Shown: piece by piece, positions 8,429-41,289 of the stretch
How positions within the stretch are numbered: position 1 is the stretch's first letter
Layout of the letters: every line of letters starts with the position of its first letter
IMG/VR virus record: IMGVR_UViG_3300037262_000047
Location: 1-41,289 of that record
Reading direction: 5' to 3' (one strand)
Length of the DNA: 41,289 bases
Origin: a virus
Made by a program: the position numbers and the translations under genes
The notes under the pieces: generated by a model
Database searches by the model: none
What the model was told of the DNA's origin: nothing
Seen by the model: only the letters and a program-made list of their open reading frames with translations

Positions 8429-10686
8429 CGGAAGGCCTCTGGCCGTAGCATACCGCGCAGCTGGCTCATCGTTTGCTGGGTGTGCGCGGCCAGCATGTCC
8501 TCAGTCACTCCGCCGCCGAAGTGGTTCTCCTGATTCAGCGTGGCCGAACGGTTGCCGCCATTGTTGACCAGGCTCTCGAAGTTCGAGGTTTGCCCGGCAG
8601 AGAGCACGCGCTCGCCGGCATGCGCGATGATTGGCACCGGCGAACCGCCTGGGCCCATCACCATGCCGCCGTGCTCGAAGGCAGCGAAAGCCATCGTCTC
8701 AGCGAAGGCCAGCGAAGCCATCGCCGGCGCGATCGGAGGATTGATGGCCGAGTAGTAGGCCATTGTGCCCGCGGCCGCAACGCCGGCGTCGCCGGTCACC
8801 GTGGCCGTGTTCGCTGCGGTCTGCTTGCCCTGCTGAGTCGCGAGGCCGCTCGCCTGCAGGATCTCGTTCATGAGCCAGAGCTCGCCCTGCTTCAAGAGCC
8901 ACTGAGCGACGAAGTCGACCAGCTGCAACTCGATCTGCCCGAACATGTGGCCGAAGGCCTTCTCGGCCGACTCTTGCTTGGTGAGTAGTGAATTGAAGGC
9001 CGTCGTGAAGTCGCGGTTGAATTCGTTCGCCGCCTGCTTCCACTGCTGCATGAACTTCTGGGTTTCCTGCTGAGTAAGTTTTTCTCGTTCCGCCTGGGCC
9101 TTCCTAGCCACGGCCGTGATTTCGTCCTCGACCTTGGTGAACTCCTGCAACTCGCGGCCGCCCTCGATCGGGTTGAATACCTCAGACTCTTTGCCGAGCG
9201 CACCGGTCGTCGCCTGCTCTTTAAGCTTCTCGGCGTCCAGCAACCGTTGCAGAGCCACGCGGTGCGAGATCTCGCCGAGCTGCTCCTGTTCACGGATCTC
9301 ACGCGAGGTCGCCTCATAGTCTGTATTCGCGGCTTCGATCGCAACACGAGCTGCTTCCTGGGCCGCGCGGACATCCTGCTCATGGTCGCGCTGGCGCTCT
9401 TCCATCGCCTTTTTCGCTTGCTCGTCGGCCTGCTTCTGGGCTTCGATGTCGGCTTTGTTGCTCTCCTCCCAGGCGTTCGTGATCGCCTCGGTGATTTGCT
9501 TCGATTCGGCCTCGAGCCGCTTGTAATCCGCGATCGACTCAGAGACGAATTCAGCCACGGCCTTTTTGTTGAGTTCGACGCGCGCGGCATAGGCTTCGCC
9601 GCCGGCGGCCGATTCTTTCAAGGCCAGCTCCTGGGATCCACCGCTGGCGGGCGTGGCGTTGCCGAACAGCCGATCGCGCTGCTCGTTGTACCGCTGCTCC
9701 TCGCGCGCGAGAGCGACGCGCTTCTCGTACTCGGCCGTGATCTTTTGCTCAGGAGTCAGAGCCGCATCAGCCGCATGCGCCGCATCGATCTTGAGCACGT
9801 TCAATTCGTGCTGGTCGCTAATGACCTTAGCCTGCAGCTCGATCGACTGTTTCGTCCGTTCAGCCGAGGCCTCTGCGGCACCGTGCGCACCCGAGAGTTC
9901 GCCGGCGGCCGCTGCGAGTGCTCCAATGTTCCCGCTCAGTAGGCCAGAGACCAGGTCACCGATGCCGGTCTTGTGGATCTGCTCAGCCGTGTCGCGCAAG
10001 GCGCTCGCAGCGTCGTTGGCTTTGTCGAGTCGCTCAGTGGCCGTCTCGATCGAGTGCACATTGATGAAGTCCCGGTCCTGCATTTTGCGGACGTCGTCGT
10101 CAAGCTTTTCCCAGACCGAGTCAATCGAAACGAACTTTTCGTAAGCCTCGTATGCGTTCTTGGCGATGTCGACCAGAACCTCACCCAGAGCCAACGCGCC
10201 GATGACTGGGAAGGCGGCCTGCAACACCGGACCCAGTCCGAGCGTCGTCGACAGGAAAGCGCCGGCGGCGCGGTTGGCAGACATGAAACGGCCCTCGAGG
10301 CCGCCGATCACCGCCGTGCCGACCTGACGCCCCGAGATTCCAAACGCGTTGGTTGCTGCGGTCGCCGCAGTCGTGACAGCCGCATTCTCCGCCATCACCG
10401 GATTCTGCGCAGCGGTCGCCGCCGTCAACTCAGCAACGGCCGCTGCAGCTGCCGTCGAAGCCGTGGTGTATTCAGCGATGACAGCGACGGCCTGCGCGCT
10501 GCCGGCAGCCGCTGCAGCACCAAGCTGGGACTGAGCCTCGGCGAGATTTTTCGTCGCTTGAGTGAGGGTGCGCTGAGCGTCGGCCATCGAAGCCGTGCTC
10601 GCCTTGACCTGCGCTTCAGCGGAGCTGAGCCCAGGCGAGACCCCAGACGCGTCCGCTACGATTCCGACCCTTAGCTCGCCTGCCAT
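8425..10686 (-). CDS. Tail tape measure protein
   Basis: A 753-residue protein dominated by Ala/Gln/Glu-rich coiled coil. Long helices at about 20-120 and 270-560 flank a hydrophobic segment near 150-175 (FPVIGALALGEVLVDIAKNAYE). The C-terminus (HGGMVMGPGGSPVPIIAHAGERVLS, about 670-695) is the standard ending of siphovirus tape measures. It lies between the tail chaperones and DUF2460, as expected. At the usual 0.15 nm per residue it predicts a tail near 110 nm. The start overlaps the chaperone extension by 16 bases. In the family, it sets tail length and exits first into the host envelope. Confidence 0.93.
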   Translation of the reverse strand: MAGELRVGIVADASGVSPGLSSAEAQVKASTASMADAQRTLTQATKNLAEAQSQLGAAAAAGSAQAVAVIAEYTTASTAAAAAVAELTAATAAQNPVMAENAAVTTAATAATNAFGISGRQVGTAVIGGLEGRFMSANRAAGAFLSTTLGLGPVLQAAFPVIGALALGEVLVDIAKNAYEAYEKFVSIDSVWEKLDDDVRKMQDRDFINVHSIETATERLDKANDAASALRDTAEQIHKTGIGDLVSGLLSGNIGALAAAAGELSGAHGAAEASAERTKQSIELQAKVISDQHELNVLKIDAAHAADAALTPEQKITAEYEKRVALAREEQRYNEQRDRLFGNATPASGGSQELALKESAAGGEAYAARVELNKKAVAEFVSESIADYKRLEAESKQITEAITNAWEESNKADIEAQKQADEQAKKAMEERQRDHEQDVRAAQEAARVAIEAANTDYEATSREIREQEQLGEISHRVALQRLLDAEKLKEQATTGALGKESEVFNPIEGGRELQEFTKVEDEITAVARKAQAEREKLTQQETQKFMQQWKQAANEFNRDFTTAFNSLLTKQESAEKAFGHMFGQIELQLVDFVAQWLLKQGELWLMNEILQASGLATQQGKQTAANTATVTGDAGVAAAGTMAYYSAINPPIAPAMASLAFAETMAFAAFEHGGMVMGPGGSPVPIIAHAGERVLSAGQTSNFESLVNNGGNRSATLNQENHFGGGVTEDMLAAHTQQTMSQLRGMLRPEAFR

Positions 10687-23177: not shown

Positions 23178-25550
23178 TTACGCGGGCCTGGGCGTCTGGC
23201 ATTTGATGCAGTACTCCTTGCCCGCAATCGTAACCCAGAACGTGCAGCCGCACACGCAGACATCGTGCGAGACGCCGGCAACGTCGATCCGCTCACCCGG
23301 CTGGCTCATTCCTGGCACAAGCCCGGCCGTTTGAGCCGCTTTGCCCTGATCCTTCACGAAGCCCGCCCAGCCATCGGTCCCGCTCGCCAACTCCGTCACC
23401 GCCCAGACCATCGCGTCCATCCGGTCGGGCGAGTCCTCGTCCGTCTTTGGATTCCAGCTCGTGGCCTGGTCTTCGAGCGTAGCAAACATGCCGTGGTGAT
23501 GCACCCGGCCCTGCTCGTAGAGCGCGGAAACGGGCTCGGCGCGGATCACCTTGCCGCGGCTCGCGGTCACCTTTTTGTAAGCTACGTTCGCATCCACAGC
23601 CCGGATGAGCGCCTCGATCATGTCGCCGCCGTTGTTGGTCTCAGCGACCAGGCGATCGGCCTGCAGGCGGAAGTAGAGCCGCACCGCGGCCATCGCTGCC
23701 TCTTGCGGCGTGTAGATAGCCGACTCGTCGGCCAGGATGTAGAAGTGCGCCGGGTCGCGGCCGTCCTGCCCAGCAGCGACGATGCCCCACTCATCCGATT
23801 CCTCGTTCGACGTCGTCGCCGGATCCACAGCGATCACGATCCGGACCAGCGGCGGAAGCTTCATCACCCTGGCGCCCTCGATGTCGCCCAGGTGGAAGAG
23901 CGCGCCCGGATTGTCGTCGAGGATCTCGGCGAGCAGCTCCTGCCGGCCGAGCCGGGTGTTTTCGTACTTCGCGATGATCTTCCGATAGAAGCCGACGGCA
24001 AGATTCGAGCGGTTCTCGTAGGTCGTTCCGCGCGTGATGGCGGTGGTCTCTTCCTTGACCAGCGTGCGAATCAGCTTCGTCGGCCGCGGCGTCGTCGTGG
24101 CCACCGTCTGCGGGTTCTTGCCCAGGCGGAGGCCGAATTGAGCCTGATCCCAGGCGTCGGTGTCGTAGCGCCATGAATTATGCACGAGTATGCCGTTCGC
24201 GAAGTACTCCTCTTCACCCTCAACCGAGAGATTGAAGACCGCTCTGCGCATCGGCAATGTGCAGACGCCCTTTACGATATTCGACGCCGCATTTTCTAGA
24301 GCAACAGATCGTGCGCGGGTCGGACGCCTTGAAAGATTCACAGCAAATCGCGCACTTCCTTGGAGGCTTTGGCGACCGGTCTTTCTTTGGCCGATTCCGT
24401 TGGCGACCTCTACTTTCCTCGGGGAACCGCTTCCGACGATCAGCGGCCCTGCATTTCGGTGAGCAGAACTTTGCGCGCGTTCCTGTCGAGGAGAAAGACT
24501 TGCCGCAGTGCGGGCACTTGCAAACATGCGGCTCTTTCTTTCGCCACTCTTCGCGCCTTCGCGATGCCTGTTTTTCCCTTGTTCCAAAGGAACGGTGCGC
24601 CTGATGTTTGCGCAGATGCTCGCTCCTGGTAAGCGCCTCGAGATTCGAGGGATCGTTGTTCGTTTTGCAGAAGTCGATGTGATGAACGTCATAGCCGCGC
24701 GGGATCGGCCCATGGACGGAGCGGTACACTGCCCGGTGAAGTTGCTCGCCACGCCTGTTGCAGAAATATCCCCCGTTGAGCCACCAGCGACGTCCGCCCC
24801 ATACGATGCTCTGCTTTGATCCCATTGTTTTATCGTATCGCCAGAGCGCACCGACGACAAGGGAATAAAACCCTTACCTTCAATAAAAACTGGGTGGTTA
24901 CCAGTGCCTACTAAACGCCTTCCATTCAGGAGAGAAAGTTCCAAGACCTCAGCCTCGGGGGCGCTCATCCACGCATCCGTCACGCGTCGCAGGCCGACGC
25001 GTGTCCACACCAGATCACCAGCTTCAACGCGGTCGATGCGCTGCTGCCCGTTCTCGGTTTCCACTAGCGATTCACCAACTACGCATGCCGGCTCGTCGCA
25101 CCAAAGCTTTTCACTTTGTTTCCCGCGGAGACGGTTGGGCTCCTCGGCCGAGAACAGCAGCGAGCGCGCACCGTTGGGCCACTCCAGGCGACGCTTCGAC
25201 ACGCGATACACCGGGCGCTCGTCGTTCGGGCAAACGGCCAGGATGCCCGATTCGCCTTCGACCATCACGTCGCGCAAGTCGTCGACGGTGGGCGCGATGA
25301 AGTTGACGCGGTTGAATCCCTGCTTGATCCACTGCCGGCACATCTCGGCTCCGACGCGCGTCTTGCCGTAGCCGCGGCCGGCGAGAATCAGCCAGGTGGC
25401 CCAATCCCAGATTGGCGGCGTTTGATTGGGCCGGGCCCAGCTCGACCAGTCGTAAACGAGCGCGTGGAGCTCAGCGTCGGTGAGCGTCGACAGCTGCTCA
25501 CTGAACCGTGGGCTTGACCTCAGCTGTTCCAGAACCGAGCAGTTTTCCAA
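23178..25550 (-). CDS. Large terminase subunit interrupted by an intein
   Basis: A 790-codon frame started by TTG 25550, preceded by AGGAG (25559-25555). Walker A is LILAGRGYGKTRVG (54-67). Walker B (KLWCDEPA, 148-155) is split from the rest by the intein at 156-458. The mature terminase would be 487 residues. The nuclease domain follows (IVIAVDPATTSNEESDEWG; RLVAETNNGGDM; DSPDRMDAMVWA), giving the acidic residues of the RNase H-like fold. The extreme C-terminus adds a four-Cys ribbon (CVCGC...CIKC). The enzyme cuts and pumps DNA through the portal. Splicing must occur for ATPase function because the intein separates Walker B from the rest of the motor domain. Confidence 0.93.
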   Translation of the reverse strand: MENCSVLEQLRSSPRFSEQLSTLTDAELHALVYDWSSWARPNQTPPIWDWATWLILAGRGYGKTRVGAEMCRQWIKQGFNRVNFIAPTVDDLRDVMVEGESGILAVCPNDERPVYRVSKRRLEWPNGARSLLFSAEEPNRLRGKQSEKLWCDEPACVVGESLVETENGQQRIDRVEAGDLVWTRVGLRRVTDAWMSAPEAEVLELSLLNGRRLVGTGNHPVFIEGKGFIPLSSVRSGDTIKQWDQSRASYGADVAGGSTGDISATGVASNFTGQCTAPSMGRSRAAMTFITSTSAKRTTIPRISRRLPGASICANIRRTVPLEQGKNRHREGAKSGERKSRMFASARTAASLSPRQERAQSSAHRNAGPLIVGSGSPRKVEVANGIGQRKTGRQSLQGSARFAVNLSRRPTRARSVALENAASNIVKGVCTLPMRRAVFNLSVEGEEEYFANGILVHNSWRYDTDAWDQAQFGLRLGKNPQTVATTTPRPTKLIRTLVKEETTAITRGTTYENRSNLAVGFYRKIIAKYENTRLGRQELLAEILDDNPGALFHLGDIEGARVMKLPPLVRIVIAVDPATTSNEESDEWGIVAAGQDGRDPAHFYILADESAIYTPQEAAMAAVRLYFRLQADRLVAETNNGGDMIEALIRAVDANVAYKKVTASRGKVIRAEPVSALYEQGRVHHHGMFATLEDQATSWNPKTDEDSPDRMDAMVWAVTELASGTDGWAGFVKDQGKAAQTAGLVPGMSQPGERIDVAGVSHDVCVCGCTFWVTIAGKEYCIKCQTPRPA
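24177..25085 (-). mobile_element. Intein in the large terminase
   Basis: 303 residues (terminase codons 156-458). The first residue is Cys (CVVGESLVETENG, block A), block B contains GTGNHPVFIEGKGFIPL with His219, and the end is EEEYFANGILVHN (blocks F and G) followed by Ser as the +1 nucleophile, so all class 1 splicing residues are present. Insertion is right after the Walker B acidic pair, a conserved site favoured by inteins. The roughly 200 codons between the splicing halves have no endonuclease in this frame. They read as Arg/Ser-rich sequence because the DNA encodes an HNH protein in the -1 frame. Confidence 0.9.
24220..24825 (-). CDS. HNH homing endonuclease nested out of frame inside the intein
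   Basis: 201 residues from ATG 24825, in the -1 frame relative to the terminase/intein frame. The N-terminus WGGRRWWLNGGYFCNRRGEQ is the usual lead-in of phage HNH proteins. The nuclease core is GPIPRGYDVHHIDFCKTNND with His48-His49, Asn61 and His70. Two four-Cys zinc fingers follow (CPHC...CSPKC; CAIC...CSRKC, about 104-125 and 158-179). It fills exactly the space between the N- and C-terminal splicing halves. No clear ribosome site precedes ATG (upstream GATAAAACA), so translation could depend on coupling or slippage. Presumably it mobilises the intein. Confidence 0.85.
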   Translation of the reverse strand: MGSKQSIVWGGRRWWLNGGYFCNRRGEQLHRAVYRSVHGPIPRGYDVHHIDFCKTNNDPSNLEALTRSEHLRKHQAHRSFGTREKQASRRREEWRKKEPHVCKCPHCGKSFSSTGTRAKFCSPKCRAADRRKRFPEESRGRQRNRPKKDRSPKPPRKCAICCESFKASDPRTICCSRKCGVEYRKGRLHIADAQSGLQSLG

Positions 25551-25870: not shown

Positions 25871-26446
25871 CTATTCTATGGGAACTTCAGCCAGCCGTTT
25901 CATGTCCTCAAGAGCAACGGCGTTGGAATCGTAGAACCGCACTGGGTTGATCTTGAAGCCGGGCGCGCTGGCATCGTAAATCTTCATCGCTGCCAGTTCC
26001 CAATTGAAGAATTCCTCCAGACGGCGCCCTTCTTCGCCTGCCAGCGCAATCACCCATCCAGCACGGCAGTGTGTATTAGCGCAAGTGTGGACGTTTTCCA
26101 TGGCCAGCGAACCAGGACGCGATGCGGCGGCATATACGGCCTTGTGGATGTCGGGAATGATCGGAACCGTCGGCGGTCCAAACTCGCCCTTTTTAACACT
26201 CTCGATGGGACTGGCGTTCTCTAAGCCCGAGCAGCGCGAACAGTCCGAACAGTCCGAACAGCCCGAACAGTCCGAACAGTCCCAGCAGCGCGAACAGCCC
26301 GAACAGTCCGAACAGCCCGAACAGTCCCAGCAGTTCAAGCAGCCTTGGCAGTTTTTGAGGCTGTCGAGCGCGGTCTGCGCTGCTGAGCGCGTGCCGAAGT
26401 ATTCCACCGAGCAGCGATTACGGTCGGCGTCTTCAATCCAGGTCAT
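25871..26446 (-). CDS. Cysteine-triplet-repeat protein with phage-type C-terminal domain
   Basis: A 191-residue protein with a good ribosome site (AAGGAG, seven bases before ATG 26446). After an N-terminal segment come 14 consecutive C-x-x triplets (about residues 34-75: CWDCSGCSDCSGCSRCWDC and so on), a cysteine every third residue. The C-terminal domain (about 97-190: IPDIHKAVYAAASRPGSLAM, HTCANTHCRAGWVIALAG, PVRFYDSNAVALEDMKRLAE) is one I recognise from other phages, function unknown. The dense cysteines suggest metal or Fe-S binding, or a disulfide-free rod. It lies just upstream of the terminase genes. Confidence 0.75.
   Translation of the reverse strand: MTWIEDADRNRCSVEYFGTRSAAQTALDSLKNCQGCLNCWDCSGCSDCSGCSRCWDCSDCSGCSDCSDCSRCSGLENASPIESVKKGEFGPPTVPIIPDIHKAVYAAASRPGSLAMENVHTCANTHCRAGWVIALAGEEGRRLEEFFNWELAAMKIYDASAPGFKINPVRFYDSNAVALEDMKRLAEVPIE
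26232..26357. repeat. Tandem 9-bp repeats encoding C-x-x triplets
   Basis: Fourteen consecutive 9-base units of the form CAGTCCGAA or CAGCCCGAA (plus strand), with drifted units at the right end. On the minus strand each encodes Cys plus two residues. In-frame expansion and contraction would change the number of cysteine triplets without breaking the frame. There are no spacers, so it is not a CRISPR array. Confidence 0.9.
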
Positions 26447-26995: not shown

Positions 26996-27184
26996 ATGAC
27001 AACTCTGACAACGCTTGAGATCGTAGCTGGAATTGACGCTGCGGTCGCCATCCTTGCCCAAAAACGCGCCGAAACGGTTCGCGGGAACGTGGTTGTTTAC
27101 CTGAAGGTTGCACACGCCGAAGCGCATCTCGCGAAAGAGGTCGAGCAGTTGCTTGCGCCTGAGCCTGAACCGGAGGTGCTCTAA
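26996..27184 (+). CDS. Small early protein, first gene of the rightward operon
   Basis: 62 residues from ATG 26996 behind AAGGGAG. The upstream in-frame ATG at 26906 lies inside the predicted promoter and is rejected. The protein is one long amphipathic helix pair (LEIVAGIDAAVAILAQKRAE, LKVAHAEAHLAKEVEQLL). It ends in TAATG overlap with the next gene. A regulatory or host-takeover role fits the position, but no family was recognised. Confidence 0.72.
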   Translation: MTTLTTLEIVAGIDAAVAILAQKRAETVRGNVVVYLKVAHAEAHLAKEVEQLLAPEPEPEVL

Positions 27185-27456
27185 TGTACGAGCGCGACCC
27201 GAATCATGATCGAGCCCTTCAGGCCTACCTCGAACTGAATGAGAGCCGCGCACGCGCTCAGGCTGCTGCGGACCGGCTTTACGACCGCGGTTTCTACGGC
27301 CTGCAGCGCGCACTGGCCACAGTCAGCCCCAACTTCAAGCCCTGCGGTGACGCGCAGGGCAAACCTCTGGCCAGTCCCTCCCTTGGACAGCCTGAGCCCG
27401 CTGGCGTCACCAGTCGGTCCGGTGGGCAAGCCGGATCCGCCAAGGGGCAGCAATGA
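27184..27456 (+). CDS. Small early protein of unknown function
   Basis: A 90-residue protein starting in TAATG overlap with the previous gene and ending in ATGA overlap with the PAP2 gene. The N-terminal half is helical and charged (HDRALQAYLELNESRARAQA, ADRLYDRGFYGLQRAL). The C-terminal half is Gly/Pro/Ser-rich, probably disordered. Its coupling to the PAP2 gene suggests joint use. Function unknown. Confidence 0.68.
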   Translation: MYERDPNHDRALQAYLELNESRARAQAAADRLYDRGFYGLQRALATVSPNFKPCGDAQGKPLASPSLGQPEPAGVTSRSGGQAGSAKGQQ

Positions 27457-28193
27457 GCACCGCGATCCTCACGCTGCCCCGTCGGCGCTTCTCAGACTCC
27501 GATCTGCTCCTGATCTTGATTTGGGGCGCAATGCTCACCCTGAGCGTGGCCATGCCCAACCTGCACGGCCTGCTGCCGATCCTCGGCGCGGGCGGCGTCC
27601 TGATCCTGCGCAGCGCGATTGGCGAGCCGGATTCGAGCGGGTTGGTGCTCGCTGTCCTGATGCCGGTGTTCGGCGTGGCTTCCGGGTTCGCGTTCAACGC
27701 GGTGACCAAACTTACGCCCTTAACGTATGACGTTCAACTGGCTCGGCTAGACATGGGAGTCGCGCCGTGGGTCCGGTCGTTCGCCCTCTCCCAGGGCTGG
27801 ATCATGGCGCTTCTGGTGACAGCGTATAAGGCGCTGCCCGAGACCATCCTGATCGCCGTTGCCTTCACCGCGGCCAGGACGCGACGCAAGCTGATCGGCG
27901 CGATGTACCTGGGAAGCTTCCTCTGCCTGGTTTGGTACCTGATCCTGCCGGCGGTCGGACCAGCGCACGTGGGCGACCCGAGCGCGCCGCGCAACTGTAT
28001 GCCGTCGATGCACCTGACCTGGGCGCTGCTGATGTACACGAACTCGCGCGGCTGGATGCGCTGGCCGACGGGAGCGTTTGTGGGATTGACAGCACTGGCC
28101 ACGCTGGCCACGGGCGAGCATTACCTGCCCGACCTGATCGCGGCGTTGCCGTGGGCCTGGACGCTGAACCGGCTGGCTGCGAGGTTCGCATGA
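27453..28193 (+). CDS. PAP2-superfamily membrane phosphatase/phosphotransferase
   Basis: A 246-residue integral membrane protein with about six hydrophobic helices. The PAP2 (PAP2_3 type) signatures are present: MPSMH (183-187, the PSxH-type motif with His187) and GEHYLPD (221-227, the second His at 223 and Asp227). Enzymes of this superfamily remove or exchange phosphate on lipids such as phosphatidic acid, undecaprenyl pyrophosphate or inositol lipids. Such enzymes are rarely seen in phages. It is coupled by ATGA on both sides to small proteins, one with a membrane helix. Early expression suggests envelope remodelling, superinfection exclusion or interference with cell-wall lipid carriers (inference). 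Substrate unknown. Confidence 0.8.
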   Translation: MSTAILTLPRRRFSDSDLLLILIWGAMLTLSVAMPNLHGLLPILGAGGVLILRSAIGEPDSSGLVLAVLMPVFGVASGFAFNAVTKLTPLTYDVQLARLDMGVAPWVRSFALSQGWIMALLVTAYKALPETILIAVAFTAARTRRKLIGAMYLGSFLCLVWYLILPAVGPAHVGDPSAPRNCMPSMHLTWALLMYTNSRGWMRWPTGAFVGLTALATLATGEHYLPDLIAALPWAWTLNRLAARFA

Positions 28194-28375
28194 ATCACGA
28201 AGATCTGGATCGCTTCGGCGAGGAATTACAGGTGCGCTGGGAAATCGAGGAGGCAGAGCGCAAGCGATTCGCGCAAGCTGCAGGCCGGCTGCACCCGGTG
28301 TGGAGTTGGGCAGTGATCGGGATGCTGGTGGCCACCGCCATCGTCTACTTTTTGAAGTCGAAAGGACTCTTATGA
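28190..28375 (+). CDS. Small single-pass membrane protein coupled to the PAP2 gene
   Basis: 61 residues from ATG 28190 in ATGA overlap with the PAP2 stop. A charged N-terminal helix (MNHEDLDRFGEELQVRWEIE) is followed by one membrane helix near the C-terminus (SWAVIGMLVATAIVYFLKSK), so it is a C-tail-anchored protein with a cytoplasmic coiled segment. It could partner the PAP2 enzyme. It ends in ATGA with the next mini-frame. Confidence 0.7.
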   Translation: MNHEDLDRFGEELQVRWEIEEAERKRFAQAAGRLHPVWSWAVIGMLVATAIVYFLKSKGLL

Positions 28376-28446
28376 TCGACAATCTCGAAATCGCGGTGCG
28401 CGTGGTTTGCGGGCTCGCGCGGTGGATTTGGGACGGTGCCCGATGA
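28372..28446 (+). CDS. Possible 24-residue micro-protein
   Basis: MIDNLEIAVRVVCGLARWIW plus DGAR. It begins in ATGA overlap with the preceding stop and ends in ATGA overlap with the next start, so a terminating ribosome would pass it. The sequence is an amphipathic, Trp-containing helix. It could be a real membrane-active peptide or only a relay for translation. Confidence 0.45.
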   Translation: MIDNLEIAVRVVCGLARWIWDGAR

Positions 28447-28637
28447 CTGACCAGACGATCACAAACCCGGCCCCGACTGACTCTGAGCCTTCGGCAGCGC
28501 TGCTTTGGGCCAAGGCCCGCGTCGCCGGCATGGAGATCGCAGCCGCCCAGGGCGACATGCTGGTGTACCTGCTGGCCGATGCGTACATCGAGGGCGCGCT
28601 CGTCGTCGCCAAACAACTGAGGCAGCCCCATGACTGA
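28443..28637 (+). CDS. Small helical early protein
   Basis: 64 residues from ATG 28443 (ATGA overlap upstream); the longer frame from 28407 starts inside the micro-frame and is rejected. A disordered Thr/Pro-rich N-terminus is followed by a helical region (LLWAKARVAGMEIAAAQGDM, LVYLLADAYIEGALVVAKQL). It overlaps the ERF gene by eight bases. Function unknown. Confidence 0.65.
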   Translation: MTDQTITNPAPTDSEPSAALLWAKARVAGMEIAAAQGDMLVYLLADAYIEGALVVAKQLRQPHD

Positions 28638-29397
28638 CACCTCGATCGAGACCACGAAACCAGCGGCCTTGCAGCCGATGGGCCCGATGGAGATGATTCA
28701 GACGGCCTTTCGCAAGGCAATCGAGGACGGCGGCGCTGCTGCCCTGGCCGTTGCCAAAGAAATCCTCGAGCAGATGGAGAAACAGCGCGATTACGAGAGC
28801 AGGGAGCGGTTCAACGCGTCGCTGCTGCGCATCCAGCGTTCGATCAAACCCATCCTCAAGAGCGGCCAGGGCGAGAAGCCAGGGCAGCGATACGCGCTGA
28901 TCGAAGACATCGACGCCGCGCTCAATCCGCTACTTGAGAAAGAGGCCATGACCCTCAGCTTCGAGCCAAGCATCAGCGAGAAACCGAACTTCATCGTAGT
29001 CACGGCTGTGCTGGCCCAGGGAGCCTACGAGCGCCGCTATCCGCTGGAGATGCCAGCCGACGGATCGGGGCCAAAGGGCGGCCAGGTCATGACGCGCACG
29101 CACGCCACTGGAAGCGCGATGACCTATGCCAAGCGATACCTCAAAAATTTCATCTTCGACCTGCAGTTCAAGCAGCGAGACGATGACGGCAACAAGGCCG
29201 GCGGCAAGCAGGTCGGCTCGCTCGATGAGAGGGAATTCATCAGGCACCGGGACAACATCGATAACGCCAAGGACCAGGCGGAATTGAAAACTCTCTATTT
29301 CGCCGCAACCGATGCCGCCACCGAGGTCGGCGACGTGGCCTCGGGCAACGCCTTTCTGACCGCCAAAAACAAGCGCTTCAAGGAGCTGAGCAAATGA
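28630..29397 (+). CDS. ERF-family single-strand annealing protein
   Basis: A 255-residue protein. The ERF core is visible at about 45-190: DYESRERFNASLLRIQRSIK, GQRYALIEDIDAALNPLLEK, then a Gly-rich strand region and TGSAMTYAKRYLKNFIFDL, the conserved YAKRY signature. The C-terminus is charged and helical. ERF proteins coat and anneal single-stranded DNA in phage recombination and circularisation. It works with the YqaJ-type exonuclease two genes downstream, a standard exonuclease/annealing pair. The intervening coiled-coil gene overlaps its stop by ATGA. Confidence 0.9.
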   Translation: MTDTSIETTKPAALQPMGPMEMIQTAFRKAIEDGGAAALAVAKEILEQMEKQRDYESRERFNASLLRIQRSIKPILKSGQGEKPGQRYALIEDIDAALNPLLEKEAMTLSFEPSISEKPNFIVVTAVLAQGAYERRYPLEMPADGSGPKGGQVMTRTHATGSAMTYAKRYLKNFIFDLQFKQRDDDGNKAGGKQVGSLDEREFIRHRDNIDNAKDQAELKTLYFAATDAATEVGDVASGNAFLTAKNKRFKELSK

Positions 29398-33675: not shown

Positions 33676-33833
33676 GCGAAGAGCGCGTGACGAAGGTTTG
33701 CTGCGATTGCCTCATGGACCCTGCGACCAGCGTCCAGGGCCGCTGTGAGGGCTGCCAGAGAGACTGGAACATTCGCCTGGCGCGGAAGTTGGCCCGCACG
33801 CCGAAGCAGGGGAAGGCGGTGAGCGCGAAATGA
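33672..33833 (+). CDS. Zinc-ribbon mini-protein
   Basis: 53 residues from ATG 33672 (ATGA overlap): VCCDCLMDPATSVQGRCEGC gives a four-Cys ribbon, followed by a basic helix (WNIRLARKLARTPKQGK). It ends in ATGA with the HNH gene. The ribbon plus basic helix suggests nucleic-acid binding. Too short for many gene finders. Confidence 0.68.
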   Translation: MSEERVTKVCCDCLMDPATSVQGRCEGCQRDWNIRLARKLARTPKQGKAVSAK

Positions 33834-34378
33834 CTCAGCGCATCAAGGCGAGCATCAAGGGCGGTGCGCTCTTCAAGGCCGAGACGCGCGTCGACTTTTT
33901 GACGGTGACAGCCTCACGCTACGGCTCGATGCGGGATCGGCTCAAGCGCAAGAAGCTGCCGCCGCCGCCATTCACGCTTGAGCAGTTCCGCGCGGACGTG
34001 CTGGGCGTCATGGGCGGCAAGAAAGACGGCGCGGTTCAATGCCGCTACTGCCTCGGCTGGTTCACCATTGGGCAGCTCGCGGTGGATCATGCGACGCCTC
34101 TCAGCAGGGGTGGCAGTTTGGCGCTGGAGAACCTGGATTACCCATGCCAACCCTGCAATGATCGCAAGGGAAGCCTCACGCTGGATGAATACAAGGCGCT
34201 GCTGGCGTTCCTCGGCACACTGCACCCGACCGCGCGCCAGGACGTGCTCAAGCGCCTGGAGGGCCACAACAAGCTCGCCGCGGGCCTGCGCAGATCGATC
34301 GTGCTGGCGAAGGCGAGCGAGCGCAAGGTACCGGCGCTGAAGCAGCCGGCGCTCGATTACGAACTGAGGAAATTTTGA
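33830..34378 (+). CDS. HNH endonuclease
   Basis: A 182-residue protein. CRYC (71-74) and CQPC (106-109) hold the structural zinc; the catalytic part is VDHATPLSRGGSLALENLDY with Asp86-His87 and Asn101, then Asn110. The C-terminal half is helical. The domain is of the HNH type seen in phage and restriction endonucleases. Unlike the two homing-type enzymes it is woven into the operon by ATGA upstream and TTGA overlap with the methyltransferase downstream, so it may be a resident recombination or host-DNA nuclease. Confidence 0.8.
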   Translation: MTQRIKASIKGGALFKAETRVDFLTVTASRYGSMRDRLKRKKLPPPPFTLEQFRADVLGVMGGKKDGAVQCRYCLGWFTIGQLAVDHATPLSRGGSLALENLDYPCQPCNDRKGSLTLDEYKALLAFLGTLHPTARQDVLKRLEGHNKLAAGLRRSIVLAKASERKVPALKQPALDYELRKF

Positions 34379-35949
34379 GCGCCTGGTACAACGAGATCGA
34401 TCCTTACAAGGCCGAGGTCATCCGCCAGGCCATCGCAGATGGCGCCATCGCGCCGGGGGTAGTGGATGAGCGCAGCATCGCAGACATCGACGCAGCCGAG
34501 CTTGTGGGATTCACCCAGTGCCACTTCTTCGCCGGCGGCGGCTTTTGGTCTCTCGCCCTCAGAAACGCCGGGTGGCCTGACTCCCGGCCCTGCTGGACCG
34601 GAAGCTGCCCGTGCCCTTCCTTTAGCGCAGCGGGCAAAGGGGAAGGGTTTGCAGACCCTCGTCACCTCTGGGCTTTCTGGGATTCCCTCATCGGCAAGTG
34701 CAAACCTCCAGTCGTCTTTGGAGAACAAGTTAGCGCAGCGATTGGACACGGCTGGCTCGACCTTGTTTGTTCAGACATGGAAGCGAAAGGCTACGCCATT
34801 GCGGCGGCGGTACTGGGAGCACACAGCGTCGGGGCGCCGCACATCCGGCAGCGCCTTTACTTCGTGGCGCACACCCACTGCGCTCACGGAGAACTCGCAG
34901 CGTGGCAGAGGGCAGGATCCAGCGGTCCGCAAAGCTGGCGGGCACACGATCAACTTGCAAGACGAAGTCACGCTGGCGACCTGGGCGACGCCCAAGGCGG
35001 AGGACGGAGAGTCGGCAGGGATGAGGCACTCGCGTGGGACGGCGGACACGCTGACGGCGCAGACAAGCCTGGCGGGTTGGGCATCTCCGAAGACGCGCGA
35101 CTTCAAGAGCGCCAGCGCGAGCCCGGAATTCCTGGCAGAGCAGATGGCACACCCGCGCGGGAAGGATCTGAGCGTGGAAGTGACCCTGGCGGGTTGGGCC
35201 ACGCCGAATTGCCCGGCGCCGCACGACTCGGACGAAACGGCGGGGAGGGCGAGACCGAGAGAGGGCTACGGCCTGGATCTGCCGATTCAGGCGAACCTCG
35301 CCGGCTGGCCCAGCCCCTGCACCCCGAACGGAGGCCGCTCGATGTCAACGGAAGCGATGGATGCGACGGGAAAGACAGCCGACGGCAAGAAGCACACGGC
35401 GAGCTTGGAACATGCGGTGAAGTTCGCCGGCTGGCCGACGCCGATGGCCGGGACGCCAGCGCAGAAGGGCTACAACGAAGCGGGCAACACGGACAGCAGC
35501 CGGAAGACGGTGGACCTCGTATCGTTCCCTGCCCCGACGAGCCTGGACGCTGGCATGTCCTCGACGGATGGGATTGCTGCACAACCAGTGACGGAGTGCG
35601 TGACATTCTCGGCATGGCCCACTCCGAGTACGGAGGATTACAAGCGGGACGAGTGGTCGGAGATAGCACTCAGGGAAGCGGTGGACCTCAAGACGGCGGC
35701 GCCGGCGACGAGCCAGAGGCTCAGGAGTTTCGCCCAATTGTCCGGCCCAGTCCGCTTAACGGCTTCTGGCGAGATGCTGACTGGATCGGATGCCGCGATG
35801 GAAAGTTCCGGCCAGTTAAACCCGGAGCATTCCCTCTGGCTGCAGGCTATCCCGGCCGTGTGGGCCTCCTACGGCTTGCGGGCGACGCAATCAATGTCGC
35901 AACGGCGGTCGCGTTCGTCGAAGCCTACCTCGAAACGGAGCGTGGCTGA
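34375..35949 (+). CDS. DNA cytosine-5 methyltransferase
   Basis: A 524-residue protein starting at TTG 34375 (GAGGA upstream; start overlaps the HNH stop). Motif I is HFFAGGGFWSLALRNAGW (50-67), motif IV SCPCPSFSAAGKGEG with nucleophile Cys80, motif VI FGEQV (Glu117) in place of ENV, motif VIII IRQRLYFVAH (157-166), and the C-terminal motif X region GDAINVATAVAFVEAYL. Between about 170 and 440 is a Gly/Asp/Arg-rich target-recognition/insert region with repeated GLGxA or RLADA-like units. These units are what the overlapping frame's W-P-T-P repeats look like in this frame. Likely role: protect phage DNA from host restriction. Confidence 0.87.
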   Translation: MSAWYNEIDPYKAEVIRQAIADGAIAPGVVDERSIADIDAAELVGFTQCHFFAGGGFWSLALRNAGWPDSRPCWTGSCPCPSFSAAGKGEGFADPRHLWAFWDSLIGKCKPPVVFGEQVSAAIGHGWLDLVCSDMEAKGYAIAAAVLGAHSVGAPHIRQRLYFVAHTHCAHGELAAWQRAGSSGPQSWRAHDQLARRSHAGDLGDAQGGGRRVGRDEALAWDGGHADGADKPGGLGISEDARLQERQREPGIPGRADGTPAREGSERGSDPGGLGHAELPGAARLGRNGGEGETERGLRPGSADSGEPRRLAQPLHPERRPLDVNGSDGCDGKDSRRQEAHGELGTCGEVRRLADADGRDASAEGLQRSGQHGQQPEDGGPRIVPCPDEPGRWHVLDGWDCCTTSDGVRDILGMAHSEYGGLQAGRVVGDSTQGSGGPQDGGAGDEPEAQEFRPIVRPSPLNGFWRDADWIGCRDGKFRPVKPGAFPLAAGYPGRVGLLRLAGDAINVATAVAFVEAYLETERG

Positions 35950-37636: not shown

Positions 37637-37651
37637 GAGTTTAGGGAATTG

Positions 37652-38389
37652 ATGAAGCCGTACTATAACCACGAAGGCATCACGATCTATCACGGCGACT
37701 GCCGGGATGTGCTCCCACAACTCGAGGTTGTGGATCTAATCCTCACCGATCCGCAGTATGGGATCTCGCAGGCTGGCGTCGTGAACGATAGAAGCGCGCA
37801 GGGCCATGGTACGCGAAACTTCGATTTCTTTGCTAACGACACCCCAGGAGAAGCCAACGCGCTCGCTATGGAGGCATGGCAAGCGATTCTTCCGCTGTGC
37901 TCCGAAGCCGCGAGCGCCTATTGGTGGGTCGGGCATTACACGTTCGGGAAGTTGGTGGATGCCTATGAAGAGAATGGCTGGAAAACGCGCTTCCTGGTAT
38001 GGTCTAAACTCTGCCCGGCCCCTACACTCCCAGGGTCCGGCTGGCCTTCGGCGGCAGAACTCTGTGTTTACGCCTTTAGGCCGGGGCGAACATGGAACCA
38101 TGACGGCACCAATTGCCCGCGCTCCAACGTGTTCATTGCCGACTCCTATAGGCACGGTATCCCAGGCAAAAACGGGCACCCCACGCAGAAGCCATTTGCG
38201 GTGGTCAATCCGCTGATCCTCGCGTCGTGCCCAACTCGAGGGACGGTACTTGACCCGTTCATGGGCTCTGGTACTACGCTAGAATCCGCCAAAAAACTGG
38301 GGCGCAACGCAATCGGCATCGAAATTGAGGAAAAGTACTGTGAGATAGCGGCCAAGAGATTGAGCCAGGAGGTATTGTGTTTTGAATGA
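37652..38389 (+). CDS. Beta-class DNA methyltransferase (N4-cytosine or N6-adenine)
   Basis: 245 residues from ATG 37652 (AGGG upstream; a TTG one codon earlier is an alternative). Motif IV, LILTDPQYGISQ (29-40), precedes motif I, VLDPFMGSGTTLESAKKLGR (199-218), the order that defines the beta class; HPTQKP (176-181) is also present. Motif IV reads DPQY instead of the usual DPPY, so activity should be tested. Likely function is protection from host restriction. Local base composition is somewhat richer in AT than the neighbouring genes, suggesting separate acquisition. The stop overlaps the next mini-frame as ATGA. Confidence 0.87.
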   Translation: MKPYYNHEGITIYHGDCRDVLPQLEVVDLILTDPQYGISQAGVVNDRSAQGHGTRNFDFFANDTPGEANALAMEAWQAILPLCSEAASAYWWVGHYTFGKLVDAYEENGWKTRFLVWSKLCPAPTLPGSGWPSAAELCVYAFRPGRTWNHDGTNCPRSNVFIADSYRHGIPGKNGHPTQKPFAVVNPLILASCPTRGTVLDPFMGSGTTLESAKKLGRNAIGIEIEEKYCEIAAKRLSQEVLCFE

Positions 38390-38660: not shown

Positions 38661-38695
38661 GCCCGTTCGCTGGCATGAAGCCGAGGTTCGGATGA
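38657..38695 (+). CDS. Possible 12-residue micro-protein
   Basis: MSPFAGMKPRFG, starting in ATGA with the previous stop and ending in ATGA with the D12 methyltransferase start. Same relay arrangement as the frames at 28372 and 38386. Confidence 0.3.
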   Translation: MSPFAGMKPRFG

Positions 38696-39495
38696 CCGTC
38701 AAGCGCCCGGTCCTGCGCTACCACGGCGGCAAGTGGAGACTCGCTCCTTGGCTCATCAAACAGATGCCAGAGCACCTGACCTACGTCGAGCCATTCGGTG
38801 GAGCTGCCTCGGTCCTCATGCGCAAAGAGCGGTCGAAGGGCGAAGTGTATAACGATCTCGATGGGAACATAGTGAATCTGTTTAGGATTTTGCGCGAGCC
38901 GGAATCGGCCGCCGAGTTGGAGAGGCTCCTGCGCCTTACGCCTTTCAGCAGAGAGGAATTCCGAGCTAGCTATGAACCACCCGTGAGCGACATCGATGCC
39001 GCGTGGAAAGCGATCGTCAGATCTTTTATGGGATTCTCGACAGACGCTGTGACCCGAGGAGTGAAGTGCGGATTTAGATCGCGCCGAACCAAGGGAATCT
39101 TGCCTTCGTTAGAGTGGTCGACATTCGCGGACGCATTGCCTAGCTTCACTCAGCGCCTCCAGGGAGTCGTGATCGAATGCCGCAATGCCTTCCAGATCAT
39201 CGCCCATTACGATTCTGAAGATACCTTCTTTCTTGTTGATCCCCCCTACGTCGAGAGCACTCGCGGATCTGGCATGGGAAGCGGCAAACATGGGTATCAG
39301 CACGAGCTCAGCGACAATGACCATCGGATGCTCGGTCTCCTCTTGAGGGGGATCAAAGGCAAGGTGATGATCTGCGGATACTGGTCGAGGCTCTATGAAG
39401 AGCTTTATAGGGACTGGCGATACGCCGATGCGAAGTGCTACGCGAACGGAGCTCACGAACGCCATGAGCGCATCTGGATGAATTACCCAGCCTGA
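38692..39495 (+). CDS. D12-class DNA adenine methyltransferase (Dam-like)
   Basis: A 267-residue protein. Motif X/I are RYHGGKWRLAPWL (9-21) and YVEPFGGAASVLM (31-43); motif IV is FFLVDPPYVEST (179-190). This order (I before IV, with an N-terminal YxGGK) is the alpha-class D12 pattern. It methylates adenine N6, target unknown. It is the last rightward gene and overlaps the convergent lysozyme gene by 13 bases. Together with the other two methyltransferases it gives the phage three modification activities. Confidence 0.92.
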   Translation: MTVKRPVLRYHGGKWRLAPWLIKQMPEHLTYVEPFGGAASVLMRKERSKGEVYNDLDGNIVNLFRILREPESAAELERLLRLTPFSREEFRASYEPPVSDIDAAWKAIVRSFMGFSTDAVTRGVKCGFRSRRTKGILPSLEWSTFADALPSFTQRLQGVVIECRNAFQIIAHYDSEDTFFLVDPPYVESTRGSGMGSGKHGYQHELSDNDHRMLGLLLRGIKGKVMICGYWSRLYEELYRDWRYADAKCYANGAHERHERIWMNYPA

Positions 39496-39914
39496 TTGAA
39501 GAGAGCGACCTCGGCTGCCCGCCGCGCCCGCAGGTCCTTGTCGATCGTCTCGACGCCGTCCTTCATCGCGTAACACCATTTAGGCATGTTCGCAGGCACC
39601 TGGTCCCAGCCGTGCGCGATCATCGTCGCGAAGTTGCGCGGGCCCTCGTTGTAGCAGAAATCGGCGCATGCGTCGTACTGATTCTGGGTCGCCGTCGCCG
39701 GCAGCAAGCGATTGAGCGTGGGTTCGAAACGGCTGGCGAGATCCTGCTCTAAGAGTTGCTCAGCCTCGGCACGCGTGACGCCTTCGGCGAAGGACTCGCC
39801 GGGCTGTAGATCGTGCCCGAAGCCGATGCAGGGCTTCCCCTCATCCAGATAGACCGCAGCAGAAAACCCCTCGTTTGATTCGATGAGGGCAACGCCGTTG
39901 GGTGAGGTCTGCAT
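39483..39914 (-). CDS. Lysozyme-type endolysin (GH24)
   Basis: A 143-residue protein without signal peptide, so it needs a holin. ESNEGFSAAVYLDEGKPCIG (12-31) followed by FGH is the T4-lysozyme-like active-site stretch: Glu15, then Asp24 after eight residues. The usual Thr of the triad is replaced by Cys29 and the loop is one residue shorter. The body (LLEQDLASRFEPTLNRLL, NQYDACADFCYNEGP) matches GH24. It cleaves peptidoglycan glycan chains at the end of infection. It is the last gene of the leftward transcript and begins one base after the lipoprotein stop. Confidence 0.9.
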   Translation of the reverse strand: MQTSPNGVALIESNEGFSAAVYLDEGKPCIGFGHDLQPGESFAEGVTRAEAEQLLEQDLASRFEPTLNRLLPATATQNQYDACADFCYNEGPRNFATMIAHGWDQVPANMPKWCYAMKDGVETIDKDLRARRAAEVALFNQAG

Positions 39915-40535
39915 TTAGAAGCCAGCGGTCCAGATCAAGGCCTCGCCGCCGTTGACGCGGATCGAAGCCTCGTCGCGAGTGATGTGATAGTGCTCAGCGA
40001 CGATGGTCACTGCCTGCTCCTGGTCGCTGTATGGCAGATCGCGGAGCCGGATGACCTTCGCCGTCTTGGCCGCCGTCGCGAGCGTGTTGCCCTTGATCGA
40101 CAGGATGAGCGCGAATATCGAATTGATCACAGTGGCCACCGCGTTAAGAGCCGCGGTGACGGCCTGCTGGCTCTTCGGGTTCACGATCTTCGCGGCCTGC
40201 AGCAAGGCGGAGTTGACCTGCTGCTGAAGAGTCGTGACGCCGGTCTGCAAGGCCTGCAGCGTGGTCTGCCCAGGGTTCGCGAGATAGGCCTTCGCCTCTG
40301 CGACGGCCAGGTTCGTGGCGGCGTCGAAACCGACCAGTGCGGCCTTGATGATTACAGCATCCTCGGGCACAAGTAGCTCGACGGTTGCGGCGACGGTCGC
40401 GGCGGTCGACTGAAGCGATGGCGTCCAATCGACGACCTGCTGCGCGATAGAAGATGGGGAACACCCTTCCAACAAGAGACCTGTGGGCGTTGCAAGAATT
40501 GCTGCGGAGCCGAGAACGAAGCGGCGGCGGTTCAT
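39915..40535 (-). CDS. Tat-type lipoprotein in the lysis cassette
   Basis: A 206-residue protein. MNRRRFVLGSAAILATPTGL followed by LLEGC is a twin-arginine signal (RRRF) ending in a lipobox with Cys25. The mature protein is Ala/Val/Thr-rich helical (about 40-150) with a hydrophobic stretch (VATVINSIFALILSIKG) and a small C-terminal domain. Lipoproteins of this kind occur next to phage holins and endolysins. Superinfection exclusion or a spanin-like role is possible, though no Rz/Rz1 pattern is seen. Tat export of a folded phage lipoprotein would be unusual. Confidence 0.75.
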   Translation of the reverse strand: MNRRRFVLGSAAILATPTGLLLEGCSPSSIAQQVVDWTPSLQSTAATVAATVELLVPEDAVIIKAALVGFDAATNLAVAEAKAYLANPGQTTLQALQTGVTTLQQQVNSALLQAAKIVNPKSQQAVTAALNAVATVINSIFALILSIKGNTLATAAKTAKVIRLRDLPYSDQEQAVTIVAEHYHITRDEASIRVNGGEALIWTAGF

Positions 40536-40546
40536 TAGGAACTCCC

Positions 40547-40759
40547 TTACTTGGCGTCCTTCTTCAGAACGTCCACGTACAGTTTGGCCAGCCCCACGGC
40601 GACGGTCGCCCAGAAGATTTCCTTCTGAGTGATTCCGTTCTGCTGCAGCGCGGCGGTGGGGATGGCGGCGAAATAGCCACCGGTGATCGTGACGAGGGTC
40701 AGCAGTCCAGACACGGTTGTCTTCCAGTTGGCTGCGAAATAGGTCAAGGCCCGGTTCAT
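40547..40759 (-). CDS. Holin-like protein
   Basis: A 70-residue protein. NWKTTVSGLLTLVTITGGYF (11-30) starts the first membrane helix and EIFWATVAVGLAKLYVDVLK (47-66) the second, with a charged end KKDAK. The NWKTTVSG start is typical of phage holins of this size. It precedes the lipoprotein and lysozyme. In the family it makes holes that free the endolysin. Confidence 0.82.
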   Translation of the reverse strand: MNRALTYFAANWKTTVSGLLTLVTITGGYFAAIPTAALQQNGITQKEIFWATVAVGLAKLYVDVLKKDAK

Positions 40760-40790
40760 TTCGCTGTCAGAGTATCACGATGCTGCGATC

Positions 40791-41027
40791 TCAGATGTGG
40801 TGAACGGCCCTGACGATCTCAAGCACCACCTGGATGAGCGTCACCAGGCTGAGCAGTATCCCGACGCCTTGCAAGAGCTTGACGGCTCCGCGGCGTTCTG
40901 CCCGGTCTTCTCTGAATTGTCGAATCATGCCATTCTCTCCGTCCAAGTCATCGCTCCAATTTTCCGCCTTTCGCTGCAGCTTCCACAGTTCCTTTTCGAC
41001 CGTCTCGTCGCCTGCTCTGTATGCCAC
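40791..41027 (-). CDS. XhlA-like coiled-coil membrane protein of the lysis cassette
   Basis: 78 residues from GTG 41027, behind AAGG; the longer frame up to 41132 overlaps the preceding gene and lacks a ribosome site. A charged coiled coil (VEKELWKLQRKAENWSDDLD, REDRAERRGAVK) is followed by one C-terminal membrane helix (LLQGVGILLSLVTLIQVVLE). This layout matches XhlA/haemolysin-type phage proteins that work with a holin. Confidence 0.72.
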   Translation of the reverse strand: MAYRAGDETVEKELWKLQRKAENWSDDLDGENGMIRQFREDRAERRGAVKLLQGVGILLSLVTLIQVVLEIVRAVHHI

Positions 41028-41059
41028 GTGGCCACCTTCTTTGGGTTCGAAGCCAATCT

Positions 41060-41289
41060 CTAAAATGCGGTGCAGGCAAAATCGATCACATCCGTCGCGC
41101 CTGCCGTCTGATTTCCTGCCACGTCTAAGCATGTCATAAAGGCGAAATTAGTGGTTGAGGCAGCTACCGTCCCGCCGCTGCCAGGCCCCGCGAACACCGC
41201 ATTCTGCGCCGCGGTGCCCAGCGAGAAGCTCAGCGCCGGCGTGGTGGTTGGGGTGGCCACGGAGGTGGTGAAAAGCGGCGAAAGCCCCC
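41060..41289 (-). CDS. Exported tail-fibre-like protein, C-terminal part (gene starts at 357)
   Basis: The remainder of the gene that begins at 357-355 and crosses the circular junction. Bases 41198-41289 duplicate 1-92. The C-terminal sequence (NFAFMTCLDVAGNQTAGATD, VIDFACTAF) holds two Cys residues that could form a disulfide after export. Stop at 41062-41060. The XhlA-like gene starts 32 bases further on. Confidence 0.85.
   Translation of the reverse strand, partial: GLSPLFTTSVATPTTTPALSFSLGTAAQNAVFAGPGSGGTVAASTTNFAFMTCLDVAGNQTAGATDVIDFACTAF
41198..41289. repeat. Terminal overlap, copy 2
   Basis: Exact copy of bases 1-92; see the first copy. One of the two should be removed to obtain the circular unit genome. 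Confidence 0.93.

Follow-up and report, generated by a model that had tools for sequence, protein, structure and literature searches.

The characterized enzymes closest to the phage protein described here are members of the PAP2 superfamily. Aur1, an inositol phosphorylceramide (IPC) synthase (9vj4, 9ivc), shares the His/His/Asp arrangement of the superfamily with the phage protein at 13% identity, whereas it is eukaryotic, binds Kei1, and uses ceramide and PI as substrates. LpxE, a lipid A 1-phosphatase (6ebu), shares the PAP2 core, but its classical C1 motif has no counterpart in the phage family. PgpB from E. coli (8bm3, 4px7) also has the PAP2 fold; however, its C1 sequence KX6RP and the SR of C3 are absent from the phage protein, and it is a lower match than Aur1 and LpxE. 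To our knowledge, direct action of phage enzymes on membrane lipid phosphates has been little described, and no report of a phage-encoded PAP2 or PF14378 enzyme was found in the openly available literature. The PAP2 phosphatases of undecaprenyl pyrophosphate (C55-PP) regenerate C55-P (PMC4641660). Sphingomyelin synthases (SMS) are active without C1 and possess a family-specific motif instead (PMC5798408).

The window, that is, the whole stretch of DNA analyzed, is one IMG/VR virus record of 41,289 bases from a soil-type phage. Structural genes (terminase, portal, tape measure, and tail) run leftward from about 26.4 kb, and an operon carrying recombination, replication, and methyltransferase genes runs rightward from 26996. 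The operon is called early from its gene order, because no sigma-70-like promoter was found by a simple scan. It opens with a 62-aa ORF (26996–27184, +; ATG start, AAGGGAG upstream), followed by a 90-aa ORF (27184–27456, +), the stop codon of which overlaps the start of the PAP2 gene by ATGA. Neither ORF matches a family above the cut-off, and the latter shows a single weak similarity, in sister phage L124 (E 5e-4). The PAP2_3 ORF (27453–28193, +; 246 aa), with the ribosome-binding site AAGGGG, is the third gene. The next recognizable gene in the operon encodes an ERF-like single-strand annealing protein (28630–29397, +; Pfam ERF, E 2.5e-15; phrog_155, E 2.2e-24), and this position just ahead of the ERF recombinase agrees with the early placement proposed in an earlier note on this DNA. 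Between the two lie a 61-aa ORF, a 24-codon frame, and a 64-aa ORF (28443–28637, +) whose start overlaps by ATGA.

Other features of the window should be noted. The early operon closes with three DNA methyltransferase genes (34375–35949, 37649–38389, and 38692–39495, +), preceded by an HNH endonuclease (33830–34378). The terminase large subunit (23178–25550, −) contains an intein at about residues 155–457, whose last residues are ILVHN and after which the extein continues with SWRYD; its match to Pfam Intein_splicing (E 4.9e-8, 33.4 bits) is below the cut-off of 35.8. A 191-aa ORF at the start of the late operon (25871–26446, −) has a Cys-rich CSx tripeptide repeat, encoded by about 12 units of a 9-bp direct repeat (26224–26358). 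A tRNA-Gly (GCC) called by ARAGORN (9737–9819, +), oriented opposite to the tape-measure gene, is probably spurious.

The multi-helix product of the third gene contains the motifs RNCMPSMH (H187) and GEHYLPD (H223 and D227); the earlier note had read PSMH and GEHYLPD from the ORF. Its PAP2 membership is borne out and can be stated more exactly as PAP2_3 (PF14378), with 51.7 bits (cut-off 27, E 1.2e-13), together with the fold and the triad. Single-sequence searches with the enzyme in viral contigs, phages, and the PDB found nothing, and profile searches were therefore used; no match to the enzyme was obtained in PADLOC, PHROGs, or NCBIfam. All 52 aligned members match the PAP2_3 family. H187, H223, and D227, corresponding to C2 (PSxH) and C3 (HxxxD), are invariant in all of them, as are D93, Y125, P166, G169, N181, P184, S185, T213, and G221. 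Loss of the catalytic His residues in relatives, which had been named as evidence against the enzyme, was looked for and not seen (triad intact in 52 of 52). We thus regard the protein as very probably a PAP2_3 lipid phosphate phosphatase/phosphotransferase.

The positions of C1 and of the Arg residue in C3 are of note. Neither the classical C1 sequence KX6RP nor the C3 pattern with Arg, [SA]RX5HX3D, is found in any of the 52 aligned members, and the position expected for the C3 Arg is occupied by Thr (T217) in 50 of them. Phosphate binding must therefore differ from that in the model PAP2 phosphatases. The invariant, family-specific D93/Y125 motif may take the place of C1 in the phage family. 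No neighbor conserved across the relatives names the substrate.

The AlphaFold2 model built from the 52-row alignment has a pLDDT of 88.2 (95–98 in the core) and a pTM of 0.84; it supersedes a first model from 10 sequences (pLDDT 71.5), which gave meaningless matches. With VIA-align, the best matches are Aur1 (9vj4, Z 16.3 over 181 residues; 9ivc, Z 16.0) and LpxE (6ebu, Z 15.8, rmsd 2.8, 150 residues), followed by G6PC1 (Z 12.9) and PgpB (Z 12.7), while unrelated rows score 5.5 or less. The Aur1 alignment, in which the structure contains ceramide, takes in a helix outside the PAP2 core. Foldseek alone gives E-values of 0.02 or worse, which may be expectable at 13% identity. The earlier note had looked to PAP2_3 and UppP/PgpB enzymes for structural comparison; the PAP2 fold is confirmed, PgpB included, but the nearest match is not of the UppP/PgpB type, since Aur1 and LpxE fit better. 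Lys and Arg residues number 12 in the inside segments versus 4 in the outside segments. This charge pattern suggests that the active-site loops lie outside, in the periplasm, as is general for PAP2 enzymes.

Transfer of a phospho-head group from one lipid to another, as by Aur1 or SMS, is one conceivable activity. The best and longest structural match (181 residues) is the Aur1 IPC synthase, the SMS enzymes likewise lack C1 (PMC5798408), and the D93/Y125 motif would stand in for it. However, LpxE is tied with Aur1 in Z score (15.8), so the fold favors neither a transferase nor a phosphatase. We consider a transferase of this kind somewhat unlikely.

An LpxE-like lipid A phosphatase, which would alter the LPS met by competing phages, draws on the same tie with a crystal structure and on the moron-like positions of some phage copies next to tail genes, but the identity is only 13% and C1 is absent; we regard it as unlikely. 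A phosphatase of the PgpB kind, acting on undecaprenyl pyrophosphate or PGP, is also improbable. It would supply more C55-P and thereby allow the envelope to last until lysis, or would unbalance the carrier lipid. The PAP2 fold (Z 12.7 to PgpB) and the periplasmic side on which PAP2 C55-PP phosphatases act (PMC4641660) are in its favor. An UppP/PgpB-type enzyme is nevertheless not the best match, because all 52 members lack C1 and the C3 Arg, and Aur1 and LpxE are structurally closer. Moreover, such an enzyme promotes carrier recycling, which is contrary to the block of cell-wall precursor recycling suggested in the earlier note (PMC4641660).

The closest proteins are encoded by chromosomal genes in Acidobacteriaceae MAGs from bogs, with identities of 50% (L003) and 47% (L002) in the best segments. 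Read by eye, the surroundings of both genes consist of ordinary chromosomal genes with no recognizable phage genes. The MAG proteins (L003, L002, and L004) resemble the phage protein in length (263–287 aa), identity (34–50%), and motifs; they differ in that their genes are stand-alone and chromosomal, with unrelated neighbors and no small ORF partner. In the tree, the protein of the window clusters with L003 and L002 (supports 99/96 and 100/99). The family is patchy across Acidobacteriia (27 of 299 genomes, mostly distant copies). These relationships suggest that the gene was apparently captured from an Acidobacteriota-type chromosome. The host phylum is read from the PAP2 phylogeny alone, since a relative of the ERF protein was found in only 1 of the 299 Acidobacteriia genomes, and that one is weak.

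Besides that of the window, the ERF protein is found in ten contigs of sister phages, at 54–73% identity. Eleven sister loci are listed, and the profile search covered all but L087, which lies on the same contig as L120. The PAP2 gene was not detected in any of the 10 ERF loci searched, of which L083, L085, and L086 have less than 800 bases upstream of ERF, too little for the PAP2 slot. Where the sequence reaches far enough upstream, the slot is occupied by different small membrane proteins and is therefore regarded as an accessory region. In sister phages L084 and L086, a protein with short-unit repeats lies just before ERF; such proteins (ASIGARASIGE, SSGDSAKIG) occur near recombination genes at L084:6307–6885, L086:27–593, and L140:5172–6083.

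By profile search, PAP2_3 was also detected in 13 other viral contigs, namely L082, L137, L138, L139, L128, L140, and seven of one sample (L129–L136). All five of the other viral proteins scanned pass the Pfam PAP2_3 cut-off, and the catalytic motif is intact in 13 of the 14 other viral loci. The exception is L140 (7797–8893), in which C2 and C3 fall in different frames and the gene is split, either through decay of the copy or through a sequencing error. The genes represent at least six other lineages of uncultivated phages, at least seven with that of the window. On the tree, the virus label requires five changes, and at least four of them are forced by well-supported branches, though the long branches leave individual placements uncertain. 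The other copies (L082, L137, L138/L139, L128, and L129–L136) belong to the same Pfam family and have the same motif as the window's, whereas they are mostly single genes on the opposite strand beside tail or lysis-like genes, or close an early operon, and do not take the third place in one as the window's copy does. Several are oriented opposite to the tail or lysis-like genes, and moron genes likewise sit on the opposite strand. PHROGs has no family for the viral PAP2_3 proteins, and five of them (the window's, L082, L137, L128, and L136) gave no hit in a search of 50,697 phage records. Routine annotation would therefore overlook phage PAP2_3.

This distribution bears on whether the gene is a passenger from a host that brings no benefit to the phage. 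Its absence from the profile hits in the ten sister-phage loci and the broken copy in L140 would fit a passenger. On the other hand, the catalytic triad is intact after about 50% divergence, and acquisition is recurrent, making a passenger quite unlikely. Since several unrelated uncultivated phages acquired similar genes, seemingly from Acidobacteriota, the PAP2_3 gene is probably useful. That it recurs with its active site preserved points to a benefit for the phages.

The small ORFs following the PAP2_3 gene are as the earlier note described. The 61-aa ORF (28190–28375, +) shares four nucleotides (ATGA) with the PAP2_3 ORF and encodes a tail-anchored membrane protein with one C-terminal hydrophobic helix (residues 37–55; Kyte–Doolittle mean 2.03). 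It overlaps, again by ATGA, a putatively coding amphipathic frame of 24 codons (28372–28446, +; AAAGGA upstream), which has an ATGA overlap at both ends and a helical moment exceeding 99.3% of its own shuffles. The proposal that these proteins form a unit with PAP2 is a different matter. Four-nucleotide ATGA overlaps are the usual junction in the operon (27453, 28190, 28372, 28443, and 29394) and thus single out no PAP2 unit; purine-rich sequence precedes most ORFs between 26996 and 28446 at a distance suited to ribosome binding. Searches of viral contigs, isolated phages, and sister phages yielded nothing related to the 61-aa protein, and unrelated genes follow PAP2_3 in each of the three chromosomal neighborhoods read (L002–L004). 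The two ORFs are orphans and should not be taken as parts of a conserved unit. A complex in which the 61-aa (and 24-aa) proteins are subunits of PAP2, as Kei1 is for Aur1, could be argued from the overlaps and the good ribosome-binding sites, but with ATGA joins general in the operon and no such partner in the chromosomal neighborhoods, it is very improbable.

A role in lysis was rejected as the first choice, since the endolysin (39483–39914, −) and a holin-like ORF are located elsewhere, on the opposite strand at the right end. The right-end lysis module (39483–41132, −) comprises the endolysin, an ORF that is lipoprotein-like and has a twin-Arg start, the holin-like ORF of 70 aa, and one more membrane ORF.

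Taken as a whole, the reading that we favor, and hold to be fairly likely, is that of a phage-captured, Acidobacteriota-type PAP2_3 enzyme of the inner membrane, made early, that alters lipid phosphates of the outer leaflet. The active site would face the periplasm, in agreement with the positive-inside count. H223 would attack a lipid (pyro)phosphate or phosphodiester at phosphorus, giving a phospho-histidine, with H187 and D227 serving as the acid and the orienting residue; water, or an acceptor lipid or sugar, would then take up the phospho group. Early expression would thus alter the phosphates of outer-leaflet phospholipid, lipid A, or carrier lipid. The changed surface of the infected cell would most plausibly disadvantage competing phages, or the envelope would be sustained until lysis. 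Surface change, exclusion of competitors, and envelope support are possible benefits, and superinfection exclusion or receptor change are possible roles of the enzyme. Surface change or exclusion as its purpose is suggested only tentatively.

Acidobacteriota are a dominant but poorly studied phylum in soil. It is conceivable, though we rather doubt it, that their phages have repeatedly recruited an Aur1/LpxE-like PAP2_3 enzyme, absent from the phage family library, that remodels head groups or lipid A and shuts out competitors. The phage PAP2_3 genes provide a concrete set for asking whether phages rewrite host lipids, with respect to both surface receptors and envelope supply.
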